NCBI GenBank assembly: GCA_021817125.1
Contig: JAKAWC010000004.1
Span: 1-57,627, forward strand
Direction of reading: 5' to 3'
Source: Microcaldota archaeon
GTDB lineage: Archaea; Micrarchaeota; Micrarchaeia; Micrarchaeales; CABMGC01
Length of the DNA stretch: 57,627 nt
Shown: piece by piece, positions 8,586 through 13,284 of the stretch
Layout of the letters: every line of letters begins with the position of its first letter
How positions within the stretch are numbered: position 1 is the stretch's first letter
Notes under the pieces: generated by a model
Told to the model about the DNA's origin: nothing
The model's database searches: none
What the model saw: only the letters and a program-made list of their open reading frames with translations
Position numbers and translations under genes: made by a program

Positions 8586-8783
8586 TCACTCTTTCTCATC
8601 ACGCCTGATAAACGCCAATCCCCTGCTGCGCGCGGCGAGTTCTTTCTGTGTTCCGGCGATTATCAGAGCTTCGGGCGTTGTTACCATGCCTGGGTCCTTC
8701 CTTTTAAGTTCCAATATGCCATCATAGAGAACCTTTGGTATCTTGACATGGACTATGTTCCCTGTTCTTTGGCCTTTCACCAT
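8586..8783 (-). CDS. Small hypothetical protein
   Basis: Listed ORF overlaps tRNA-Tyr; start re-set to MVKGQRTGNIVHVKIP. Confidence 0.5.
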   Translation of the reverse strand: MVKGQRTGNIVHVKIPKVLYDGILELKRKDPGMVTTPEALIIAGTQKELAARSRGLAFIRRDEKE

Positions 8784-8798
8784 CCGATCACGAATATT

Positions 8799-8898
8799 TC
8801 CCGTTGGAGCGAGTCGAACGCCCAACCTGCCGGTTTCTAACATAAAATGTTAGGATTTCAGACTACAGCCGGCCGCTCTGCCATTGAGCTACAACGGG
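8799..8898 (-). tRNA. tRNA-Tyr(GTA) with 28-nt intron
   Basis: Acceptor CCCGTTG/CAACGGG, D arm GCTC/GAGC, anticodon stem GCCGG/CCGGC, GTA; inferred intron 8835-8862 after position 37. Confidence 0.88.
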
Positions 8899-8960
8899 GC
8901 TAAATCTACGAATATATAGGCATAAGCTATATTAATATACTTTGTTGGGGGAATAAATTC

Positions 8961-11864
8961 ATGCCTGAAAATGCGCCAGCTAGCGCCACTAGTGAGCCCA
9001 AAAAGGCTAAGGCGGCGAAGGCCCCTTCTCCTTCTGTTGCTGCGACCACAACCGACGCTGCGGCACAGGCAACCCCAGACAAGACAACGCCTGATGCGCG
9101 TGGCAAGACCGCCAAGGAAGCGAAGAACACGCTCGGGGCCACGGCCAGAATGAAGAAACAGGCAAAGTCCACGGGGAAGAGCAGGGCCACGCCGATGACC
9201 TATTACTGGCTCAAGGACTACATACGCGGTTTCGTCAGCCACAAGAACTTCCCCGATTCACTTGCGATAGTGTTCGCCCTGGCTAGCGTATCCCTCGCTT
9301 TCCCGTTCCTGCCGCCTACGGTCATCGTGCCGCTCCTGATAATCACATTTGCAATCTCGATGCTCCACCCTATGGCAGGACTTCTGGCGATGTTCGCCGA
9401 GACGCTGCCGATGCTCATCTACCAGACGCCACTGCTCGCCTGGATGTTCACGCTCTTCATGAGCGTGTCGCTGTTCATAGGCTACAAATACTACAGGACG
9501 ATAACCTTTGCATACATGCTGATAATGCTCCCGATGTCATCGCTTGGGGCCTTCCTTGAGATACCCGCTTTCCTGCTGTCCATCCTGGTCCTCGGATTCA
9601 AGAGAGGGGCAATAGTCGCCATGGTCGCGGTGCTGCTGGTAATAGTCTTCTCCGGGCTTACTGGCATCCAGAATACGGGGCCGATAGTCTTCAACGCCAC
9701 TGCTGCCCACTCTCTCATCGCTGCGCAACCCGCGACACAGTTCCTCGTGCCGTCAAAGCCTCCGGCTTACCTGACCGATTTTGGGACGGCGTGGGGCACT
9801 GCATGGTCTACGTTTGCAAGTTTTACTGTCGGCAGTGACCTATGGTATGGCTTCAGCTCGGCAGCGTATGTCTTCGGCTACGATGCGCCGATAAACATCA
9901 TGCAGATGGTCCTCTGGGTGGTCGTGGTCTTCGCAGTCAGCAGTTACGCCATCAAGAGCAGGTCCGGATTCAGGGGCGCAGAATCGTCAATGTTCGGCGC
10001 AATAATACCTGCGGCATATGTGGCGCTGTCGTTCCTGACGAATAGCCCTATTGGCATAATCCCGATCGCAAGCTTCGTCTCTACTCCGCTCGTGCTCCTC
10101 TACCTTGAATTCAACAATATAAGTGTCGTGAAGGCGCTGGAGGTGATGAAGCAGGATTTTCTTGGCAAGTTCGGCGAGGCGTTTGAAGACCTCTCCACTG
10201 GAGCGAAGGAGACTCTTGACGACGTGGCGAACTATGATGAGACCAAAAAGGAGCTCAGGGAAGCGCTCATTGCGCCGATAGAGCATAGGGAGATAGCTGG
10301 TGCGTACGGGGTGAAGCCTGCACGGGGCATACTCCTGTTCGGGCCGCCGGGAACCGGGAAGACTTTGATGATGCGAGCTCTTGCCAACGACCTTCGCGCA
10401 GGTTTCTTCTACGTCAAAACATCTTCTATACTGTCACCTTACGCTGGGGAGGCTGCCCAGGCGGTCTCTAGGGTCTTCGCGACAGCAAAGAAGCATCCGC
10501 CAGCAATACTCTTCTTTGATGAGATAGACAGCATAACCGGCAGCAGGGATCTCGGCGGCGAGAGCGAACAGGGAAGGCAGCTCCTCTCTACGCTGCTTGG
10601 GGAGATGGACGGCTTCCAGAAGACAGAGGGTGTGGTGATAGTCGGAACTACGAACGTCCCGCACATACTTGACCCGAGCATCCTGAGGCCAGGCAGGTTC
10701 GACAAGGTCATATACATGCCCCTACCAGACGCGAGCGGCAGGGCGAAGATATTCCAGTACTACCTCAAGAAGCTCCCTATAAGCCAGGACCTTGATTACG
10801 CCAAGCTCGGTGAGATATCAAACCGATTCTCAGGGGCAGACATAAAGAACGTCTCTGATGAAGTGGCGAGGCAGATAGCGGATGTTGCTGTCACGCGTGC
10901 GAGGGTCCTTGAGATAAACATGCAGGACATCGTCAGGGTGATAAAGCAGACGAAACCATCAACCTCTCTCGCACAGATAGACGAATACAACATGTTCAAG
11001 ATGGATTATGAACGCAGGGCTCATCCTGAGAAACTCGACCTCAAGGAGACGACGACCACGCTGGACGATGTGGTCGGGCTGAAGGAGGCGAAGAAGGCGC
11101 TCTACGAAGCGGTAGAGGTGCCCATACTGCACCCCGAGCTGATAAAGAAGTTCGATATCTCCAGCACGAAGGGAATACTCCTGTTCGGGCCGCCGGGGAC
11201 CGGGAAGACTATGCTGATGCGTGCGGTGGCGAACGAGCTTGGAGATGTCCACATTGTGACCGTCTCCGGTGCAGACATCGCGAAGGGAGGGCTAGAGCGC
11301 GCTGTGCTTACGATAAAGCAGGTCTTTGACAGGGCCAAGGAGAACGCGCCTGCGATATTATTCATAGACGAAATAGATGCCATAGTCGCGAGCAGGGAGA
11401 ACGCGACCCAGTTCAATGTACAGGTGACAGGAGAGTTCCTAGAGGAGCTTGACGGCATGAAGGATGCAACTGGGGTGGTGCTTGTCGGCACGAGCAACAG
11501 ACCCGACGCTCTCGACCCTGCGATACTCAGGGCGGGCAGGTTTGACAAGCTGATATTCATTCCGCCTCCGGAGAAGGAGGACAGACAGAGGATATTCGAG
11601 CAGAACCTCAAGAAGGCGCCTACATCGGATGACATAGACTACGCGAAGCTCGCGGATATGACTGTTGGATACACTGGTGCAGATATCGCCACGGTCTGCA
11701 AGCAGGCGAAACTTGGGGCACTGGAGAAGACGCTGGCTGCAGGACAGGAAGCGAAGATTGCACAGGCTGACATTGAGAAGGTCCTGCAGAAGGTCAGGCC
11801 GTCGGCTCCGAGCATAGTGATAGGCAGATACATGACATTCCTCTCAAGGTTCGGAAGTAGGTAG
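8961..11864 (+). CDS. Polytopic membrane protein with two C-terminal AAA+ (Cdc48-like) domains
   Basis: Ala/Lys-rich N-terminus, multiple hydrophobic segments, two GILLFGPPGTGKT Walker A motifs, ILFFDEIDSI and ILFIDEIDAI Walker B. Confidence 0.93.
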   Translation: MPENAPASATSEPKKAKAAKAPSPSVAATTTDAAAQATPDKTTPDARGKTAKEAKNTLGATARMKKQAKSTGKSRATPMTYYWLKDYIRGFVSHKNFPDSLAIVFALASVSLAFPFLPPTVIVPLLIITFAISMLHPMAGLLAMFAETLPMLIYQTPLLAWMFTLFMSVSLFIGYKYYRTITFAYMLIMLPMSSLGAFLEIPAFLLSILVLGFKRGAIVAMVAVLLVIVFSGLTGIQNTGPIVFNATAAHSLIAAQPATQFLVPSKPPAYLTDFGTAWGTAWSTFASFTVGSDLWYGFSSAAYVFGYDAPINIMQMVLWVVVVFAVSSYAIKSRSGFRGAESSMFGAIIPAAYVALSFLTNSPIGIIPIASFVSTPLVLLYLEFNNISVVKALEVMKQDFLGKFGEAFEDLSTGAKETLDDVANYDETKKELREALIAPIEHREIAGAYGVKPARGILLFGPPGTGKTLMMRALANDLRAGFFYVKTSSILSPYAGEAAQAVSRVFATAKKHPPAILFFDEIDSITGSRDLGGESEQGRQLLSTLLGEMDGFQKTEGVVIVGTTNVPHILDPSILRPGRFDKVIYMPLPDASGRAKIFQYYLKKLPISQDLDYAKLGEISNRFSGADIKNVSDEVARQIADVAVTRARVLEINMQDIVRVIKQTKPSTSLAQIDEYNMFKMDYERRAHPEKLDLKETTTTLDDVVGLKEAKKALYEAVEVPILHPELIKKFDISSTKGILLFGPPGTGKTMLMRAVANELGDVHIVTVSGADIAKGGLERAVLTIKQVFDRAKENAPAILFIDEIDAIVASRENATQFNVQVTGEFLEELDGMKDATGVVLVGTSNRPDALDPAILRAGRFDKLIFIPPPEKEDRQRIFEQNLKKAPTSDDIDYAKLADMTVGYTGADIATVCKQAKLGALEKTLAAGQEAKIAQADIEKVLQKVRPSAPSIVIGRYMTFLSRFGSR

Positions 11865-11868
11865 TCGC

Positions 11869-13284
11869 ATGCTCCCTATTCTGCCTCTGATAGTCCTCGT
11901 ACCTTATCTGTTCCTTGCCCCGACGCTGCTGCTGCGGAAGGAGGCATCGTGGAACATCGCGATACTGGCGTCGCTCTTAATGGCAGGTCTTGTCGGGGCA
12001 GCGGTGTACTATGCATCTGCACAGGGCCTGGGTTCCGTCTCGTTCGACATCGCTTACATCCCTGCATTCTCCATCAACCTTAACATGCAGCTGACCAACA
12101 TGAACCTGATTCTGGTGGTCATGACTGCGATAGTGTTCCTCGCGACTTCGATTGTAGGCAAGTATTTCATTGGCAAGGCGGAGCGGATATACAATGTCAT
12201 CTTCCTTCTGGCGGAGGGGTCGGCACTGGGCGTGTTTCTATCCGCAAACCTCTTCCTGTTCTACATCTTCTTTGAGATATGCGAGGTCGCGCTCTTCTTC
12301 ATAATCTTCATCTACGGCGGGTATGACAGGCGGTACGCGGCGGTAAAGTTCATCATCTATTCGATAGTGGCGACCCTGCTCCTGCTCATAGGTATAATCT
12401 TGCTCTACGCTTACACGACGCCGCACAGCTTCGACATTGCGTCGATAGCTCAGAATGCGGGAGATATACCTGCAAACATCCAGCTCCTGGTATTCGTACT
12501 GCTGCTGGTGGCGTTCATGATAAAGATGCCGGCGTTCCCGTTCCATTCGTGGCTCCCTGACGCACATACGGAAGCACCTGCCACGGGCAGCATGATACTT
12601 GCAGGCGTACTTCTGAAGTTCGGTGGATACGGCCTGCTGCTGCTGTTCTTCATGCTCCCGATATCAGCACACTATGCTGCATACCTGTCCATGATATTCG
12701 GCTTCTCTGCCATATACGGGGCTGTGGTCGCACTCAAGCAGCTTCACCTTAAGAGGATGATTGCCTACACTAGTGTCGCCGACATGGGCATAGTGGCTTT
12801 CGGACTCTCGTCATTCAGCGTCTACGGCACCGCAGGGAGCCTTTACCTGATGCTCAGCCATGGTCTGGCGATATCGATGCTCTTCATGCTTGCCGGCAGC
12901 ATAGATGAGGGTTTTGGCACTCTGATTATAAGCAGGATAAATGGCCTTGCGAGGAGCGTGCCGTCGGTGACCTACCTTTTCCTGATGGGCATATTCGTGA
13001 CCGTCGGCCTGCCGCTTACCGCAGGGTTCATAGGTGATCTGCTCATATTTATAGGGGCATACGGCACCTTCGGAACCGCCGGACTAGTCCCGCTCGGGGC
13101 GGTGTTCATAGTGGCGGCCTACCTATTCTGGGTGGTCGAGAAGGCGTTCTTCGGCTCGGCCAAACGGCCTGAGCCGCTCAATTCGATAAGCCCGAGCGTA
13201 ACCTACGCCGGGTTGCTGCTTGCGGCGTCAGCGATCATATTGGGAGTCGTCCCGGCACTGCTCCTCGGAGTATCTGGCTTCTGA
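11869..13284 (+). CDS. nuoM: NADH-quinone oxidoreductase subunit M-like
   Basis: Proton-conducting transporter pattern: KMPAFPFHSWLPDAHTEAPATGSMILAGVLLKFGGYGL. Confidence 0.9.
   Translation: MLPILPLIVLVPYLFLAPTLLLRKEASWNIAILASLLMAGLVGAAVYYASAQGLGSVSFDIAYIPAFSINLNMQLTNMNLILVVMTAIVFLATSIVGKYFIGKAERIYNVIFLLAEGSALGVFLSANLFLFYIFFEICEVALFFIIFIYGGYDRRYAAVKFIIYSIVATLLLLIGIILLYAYTTPHSFDIASIAQNAGDIPANIQLLVFVLLLVAFMIKMPAFPFHSWLPDAHTEAPATGSMILAGVLLKFGGYGLLLLFFMLPISAHYAAYLSMIFGFSAIYGAVVALKQLHLKRMIAYTSVADMGIVAFGLSSFSVYGTAGSLYLMLSHGLAISMLFMLAGSIDEGFGTLIISRINGLARSVPSVTYLFLMGIFVTVGLPLTAGFIGDLLIFIGAYGTFGTAGLVPLGAVFIVAAYLFWVVEKAFFGSAKRPEPLNSISPSVTYAGLLLAASAIILGVVPALLLGVSGF

Follow-up and report, generated by a model that had tools for sequence, protein, structure and literature searches.

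The known systems closest to the protein reported here are chiefly membrane-anchored or tandem ATPases of the classical AAA group. In Msp1, FtsH and Cdc48, substrates enter from the N-terminal face of the ring, and Bcs1 consists of a single transmembrane helix, a Bcs1-specific domain and a single AAA module. Msp1 likewise combines a lone transmembrane helix with one AAA module, and its double aromatic W187-Y188, together with the double-aromatic pore loop of Cdc48, is described as the grip for pulling proteins from membranes (PMC7018516). The example of Bcs1 shows that folded protein can be carried across a membrane by a membrane-anchored AAA protein (PMC11143374). Among prokaryotes, Cdc48 is the only tandem type recorded in a family survey (PMC5070193).

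The window analyzed here, a stretch of 57,627 nucleotides from a Micrarchaeota genome (contig JAKAWC010000004.1), encodes a protein (hereafter membrane AAA) that appears to represent a second, widespread tandem-AAA type beside Cdc48, with a membrane domain that has no known family or solved fold. No description of the membrane AAA of Micrarchaeota was found in the literature, in agreement with a preliminary description of this DNA that had presented it as a candidate undescribed system, and the passages searched in PMC8975820 and PMC5498576 make no mention of it.

Domain layout and motifs

The gene, its subdivisions and its immediate downstream neighbor are located in the window as follows.

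8961..11864, + strand: membrane-embedded tandem AAA+ ATPase, 967 aa, ATG start (Pfam, orthologues, AlphaFold2 model)
8961..9191, + strand: N-terminal Ala/Lys/Thr-rich tail (residues 1-77), poorly conserved
9192..10166, + strand: polytopic membrane domain (residues 78-402; AlphaFold2, hydrophobicity)
9420..9443, + strand: motif Y-Q-x-P-x-x-x-W (residues 154-161), shared across the class and placed between membrane helices three and four
9663..9884, + strand: predicted extracytoplasmic loop (residues 235-308) with short helices and one Lys/Arg in 74 residues
10149..10211, + strand: conserved cytosolic linker KQDxxxKFGEAFEDL from the membrane domain to D1 (orthologue comparison)
10329..10724, + strand: AAA+ module D1 (residues 457-588; Pfam, motifs), with Walker A GPPGTGKT 461-468, Walker B ILFFDE 516-521 and Arg-finger region RPGR 576-579
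10440..10448, + strand: D1 pore loop 1 (residues 494-496), Y-A-G in the window protein
11172..11570, + strand: AAA+ module D2 (residues 738-870; Pfam, motifs), with Walker A GPPGTGKT 743-750, Walker B 799-804 and Arg-finger region RAGR 857-860
11262..11312, + strand: degenerate D2 pore-loop region lacking an aromatic-hydrophobic-Gly motif
11869..13284, + strand: nuoM-like Proton_antipo_M subunit, 4 bp downstream of the membrane AAA gene; a neighbor, not a conserved partner

The reading frame and its Ala/Lys/Thr-rich N-terminus are exactly as the preliminary description had given them, and the succession of a hydrophobic region and two AAA+ modules that it outlined is borne out by hydrophobic windows, AlphaFold2 helices and a double match to Pfam AAA (PF00004; E 2.2e-76, best stretch 457-588). 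A C-terminal AAA_lid_3 match covers residues 891-929. The N-terminal tail is disordered in the model (pLDDT <50 over residues 1-70) and predicted to be cytosolic, with nine Lys/Arg residues in positions 60-96.

Hydrophobic stretches of the membrane domain lie at residues 97-146, 156-240, 308-332 and 362-384 (19-residue windows) and are covered by long helices with pLDDT values of about 90-95 in AlphaFold2 models, which are monomers built from a 76-sequence alignment. Mean pLDDT was 83.3 for the full chain and 89.5 for the membrane domain modeled alone (pTM 0.86). An interfacial helix (79-92) is followed by helices at 97-113, 119-135, 137-155, 157-192, 196-211, 213-234, 309-332, 338-360 and 366-384. 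In the model these would form about ten membrane-crossing or hairpin segments, one pair of which is probably a short hairpin, and both ends of the domain are predicted to be cytosolic from the helices and the Lys/Arg distribution under the positive-inside rule. The Y, Q and W residues of the Y-Q-x-P-x-x-x-W motif are invariant across the class (35 sequences). The domain matched nothing in Pfam and nothing in the PDB by sequence, and fold searches with its model returned no relative in the PDB (best E 0.55) and nothing in BFVD; the helices and the lack of Pfam or PDB matches agree with the earlier view that a polytopic membrane domain takes the place of the Cdc48 N-domain. The BioY S-component (4dve) was considered as a fold relative and rejected as not significant (E 5.9, TM-score 0.40 by target).

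Within the motor, the Walker A, Walker B and Arg-finger regions of both D1 and D2 are conserved throughout the class. Pore loop 1 of D1 reads W-Y-G in 14 of the 20 loci outside the window's order; within that order its first residue is Tyr or Phe in 35 of 40 members and the second aromatic is mostly replaced by Pro or Ser, so that the window protein itself retains the first aromatic only. The zinc protease motif HExxH is absent from all 76 sequences (the window protein and 75 orthologues), which upholds the earlier exclusion of FtsH, and a C-terminal HbYX motif occurred in 0/60 and 0/76 membrane AAA sequences. Long intein-like insertions, mostly of about 500 aa, interrupt the D1 pore loop exactly (WYGES/...FAHN/SE) in four homologues outside the window's order (L130, L134, L140 and, in shortened form, L135), and L130 bears a second such insertion just before the D1 Walker B.

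These features bear on the possibility that the protein uses ATP to transport or scramble lipids, peptides or other small molecules, its AAA rings serving as a conformational engine rather than a threading motor. An anchor would need far fewer than the roughly ten membrane segments of each chain, the membrane domain conserves Tyr, Gln and Trp, and the D2 pore loop is degenerate. However, neither the sequence nor the fold of the membrane domain resembles a transporter, D1 still has a pore loop of the kind that grips substrate, and classical AAA rings are not known to power solute transport. Such a function is considered quite improbable.

Distribution and ancestry

The fusion occurs at full length in almost all genomes of the window's order, nearly always as a single copy, with 40-68% identity, and its architecture is kept across about 20 families, even where the membrane domains share only about 20% identity. 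A first profile search of 302 Micrarchaeota genomes found the membrane domain in 243 of them, and a class-wide profile raised this number to 251. The preliminary description had called for a search for the same fusion in Micrarchaeota, and the full-length orthologues across the window's order together with these phylum-wide profile matches exclude a fusion or assembly artefact. Seven families (f22-f28) have no profile match to the membrane domain in any of their 29 genomes, and what matches there covers the AAA part alone, as Cdc48 would; outside these families it was present in 251 of 273 genomes, which are mostly incomplete. The class-wide profile found no membrane domain in 92 other archaea, and the two with the top full-length scores (G320 and G380) proved to encode ordinary Cdc48 proteins with N-domains. 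Unfused membrane domains were not found, as the candidate matches (a short one, L106, and L266-L268) all end at contig ends. The named records belong to Micrarchaeota, among them Ca. Micrarchaeum sp. A_DKE, which is in culture (L231; NZ_CP060530.1, about 183445-186195, - strand). One genome has two paralogues about 30 kb apart (L074 and L075 on contig C5 of G039). Close homologues also occur in records titled Candidatus Marsarchaeota (L170, L193, L212 and others), whose titles are probably attached to mislabeled Micrarchaeota MAGs.

The preliminary description had assigned the motor to the Cdc48/VAT type. This assignment holds for the tandem AAA arrangement and for the best PDB matches, which are VCP-like ATPase and p97/Cdc48/VAT by sequence (up to E 5e-106 over the AAA part) and p97/Cdc48 by fold, but may not hold for ancestry. 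Against the curated CDC48 model (NCBIfam TIGR01243) the protein scored 444.9 bits, the cut-off being 802.65; it reached 392 bits over the AAA part with the curated FtsH model (cut-off 600) and also matched the curated PAN model below its cut-off. In trees, D1 and D2 of membrane AAA stand apart from Cdc48 D1, Cdc48 D2 and PAN, and they pair with each other once long branches are removed. A grouping with Cdc48 D1 and D2 received AU p values of 0.052 and 0.105, and of 0.042 and 0.0595 after removal of long branches. Because the AU test rejects that grouping only marginally (p 0.042) or not at all (p 0.052 to 0.105), an independent tandem duplication is tentatively favored, and a history as a Cdc48 with a new N-domain appears less likely.

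Genomic neighborhood

Upstream of the gene, a TATA-like element, TATATTAATATA, was recognized by eye at window positions 8928-8939 (22-33 bp 5' of the ATG), which suggests that membrane AAA has its own promoter with a very short leader. A tRNA-Lys gene lies further upstream (8799-8872, - strand); the start of the reading frame at 8586-8843 (- strand) falls within it and is therefore probably wrong.

On the downstream side, measurement confirmed the 4-bp gap to the nuoM-like gene from which the preliminary description had derived a possible role in membrane-complex assembly. An assembly or remodeling factor for respiratory membrane complexes would account for this spacing, for the co-directional nuo genes at -4 to -1 bp in L144, L157 and L163, and for other nuo genes near membrane AAA in further genomes of family f1. 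Co-directional nuo genes with gaps of -4 to +4 bp are, however, confined to these three loci and the window; in several more f1 genomes nuo genes adjoin on the opposite strand, the prevailing orientation in that family, or are distant. No nuo gene lies beside membrane AAA in the compared neighborhoods of f2 or other orders, where the protein is nevertheless conserved. The nuo-linked role is not supported and is the least probable of the explanations considered.

The most widespread neighbor outside the window's order is an S-layer protein gene (PF05124), found in seven families against four for the next. It lies downstream on the same strand in 10 of the 17 loci outside that order whose downstream sequence extends for 1.8 kb or more, and three further checked loci bring the total to eight families. 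The gap is usually 217-675 bp, and 1.4-2.3 kb in two loci. In four of these neighborhoods (L125:13751-16316, L137, L138 and L131), the S-layer gene is followed by genes for a predicted membrane-anchored protein of about 690 aa and for a protein of about 155 aa that is related to the C-terminal portion of the larger one and matches FtsH_ext below the threshold (E 0.0038). Twelve loci of the window's order (among L071-L089, L149 and L151) encode a protein of about 230-370 aa (cluster c2) downstream of membrane AAA and convergent to it, mostly within 13 bp, and two members tested matched no Pfam family.

The S-layer neighbor is a hint that membrane AAA acts on envelope proteins or serves them, and it could equally point to outward assembly as to extraction. 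In the former case, the membrane domain would form a channel and the AAA rings would drive folded or unfolded envelope proteins, such as S-layer precursors or anchors, across the membrane or into it, much as Bcs1 moves folded protein across a membrane (PMC11143374). Against an outward translocase or insertase, a canonical D1 pore loop 1 and a membrane domain on the N-terminal face fit pulling into the cytosol, and gaps of 200-700 bp suggest that the S-layer gene is transcribed separately. The S-layer match of the window's genome lies on contig C22, away from the membrane AAA gene, and families f22-f28 have S-layer proteins without any membrane AAA gene. This last observation, which also counts against the dislocase reading given below, rules out strict S-layer dependence. 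Outward translocation is regarded as unlikely.

A candidate dislocase and its relation to known systems

The preferred interpretation is a membrane-embedded hexameric AAA+ dislocase that takes membrane or envelope proteins into the cytosol, in line with the protein extraction suggested in the preliminary description; confidence in this function is evenly balanced. The interpretation derives from the lack of a protease, the attachment of the membrane domain to the side of D1 where substrate enters, the gripping D1 pore loop, and the proteasome and HbYX-tailed AAA partners in the cell. The membrane domain is conserved and confidently folded, and lies on the N-terminal face of D1. Near-universal presence outside the seven families suggests housekeeping quality control of the membrane or envelope.

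In such a machine, six copies would surround the mouth of the pore with about 60 membrane helices. Membrane or envelope proteins that are misfolded, orphaned or misplaced would pass from the bilayer into the vestibule of the membrane domains, be seized by the D1 pore loops, be threaded through D1 and then D2, starting at the membrane side, and be released unfolded into the cytosol. With neither HExxH nor HbYX in membrane AAA, another machine must therefore degrade the released substrate. The window's genome (G000) encodes 20S proteasome subunits and a separate Cdc48 (719 aa from the first Met) that ends in NMYR, an HbYX motif; this Cdc48, or an AAA protein of about 500 aa that is also HbYX-tailed, could hand the substrate to the 20S proteasome. 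Two single-AAA proteins of about 500 aa are encoded in this genome, on contigs C22 (L003) and C2 (L004), with unfamiliar N-domains, W-Y-G pore loops and the C-termini IYS (HbYX) and SYA, respectively, and no canonical PAN was recognized there.

Several observations count against the dislocase. Its degenerate D2 pore loop may mean that D2 does not thread substrate at all, and the second D1 aromatic is mostly lost in the window's order. There is also no obvious gap for membrane AAA to fill, since Lon is present throughout: Lon_C was detected in 297 of 302 Micrarchaeota genomes, including a separate gene in the window's genome, which rules out replacement of a missing Lon. Families f22-f28 (G273-G301) mostly have three to five Lon_C matches, compared with one or two elsewhere, an excess that may reflect one lineage split only. 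A bolder version of the dislocase reading is held tentatively, with more doubt than belief: a second, independently formed prokaryotic tandem-AAA lineage, specific to Micrarchaeota and linked to the S-layer, which joins channel and motor in one polypeptide and uses a new membrane fold as the conduit of an ERAD-like, single-chain dislocation. Membrane AAA opens two questions to experiment: in what way a reduced archaeon that depends on a host disposes of, or assembles, the proteins of its membrane and S-layer, and whether nature has a single polypeptide that unites channel and motor for extracting membrane proteins.

Compared with known systems, membrane AAA shares with FtsH and the i-AAA and m-AAA proteases a membrane domain N-terminal to a classical AAA module, but has tandem AAA modules, lacks HExxH and a peptidase domain, and scores below the FtsH cut-off. 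Archaeal LonB is also a membrane-associated AAA+ machine, although Lon has its own protease domain. Bcs1 resembles membrane AAA as a membrane-anchored classical AAA protein without a protease, and it moves protein across a membrane. The likeness to Cdc48/p97/VAT lies in two classical AAA modules in tandem with Walker A, Walker B and Arg finger, whereas the N-domain of those proteins (double-psi barrel and beta-clam) is absent and a helical membrane domain is found in residues 1-410; archaeal Cdc48 further differs in its HbYX tail and coexists with membrane AAA in the window's genome. Msp1/ATAD1 likewise has a membrane segment N-terminal to the AAA ring and no protease, and its Trp-Tyr pore loop 1 recurs in many members outside the window's order; membrane AAA differs from it in having about ten segments and two AAA modules. 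If membrane AAA is a dislocase, a single chain would combine the tasks that eukaryotes divide between Hrd1/Derlin and Cdc48, or perform the task that Msp1 accomplishes with a single helix.
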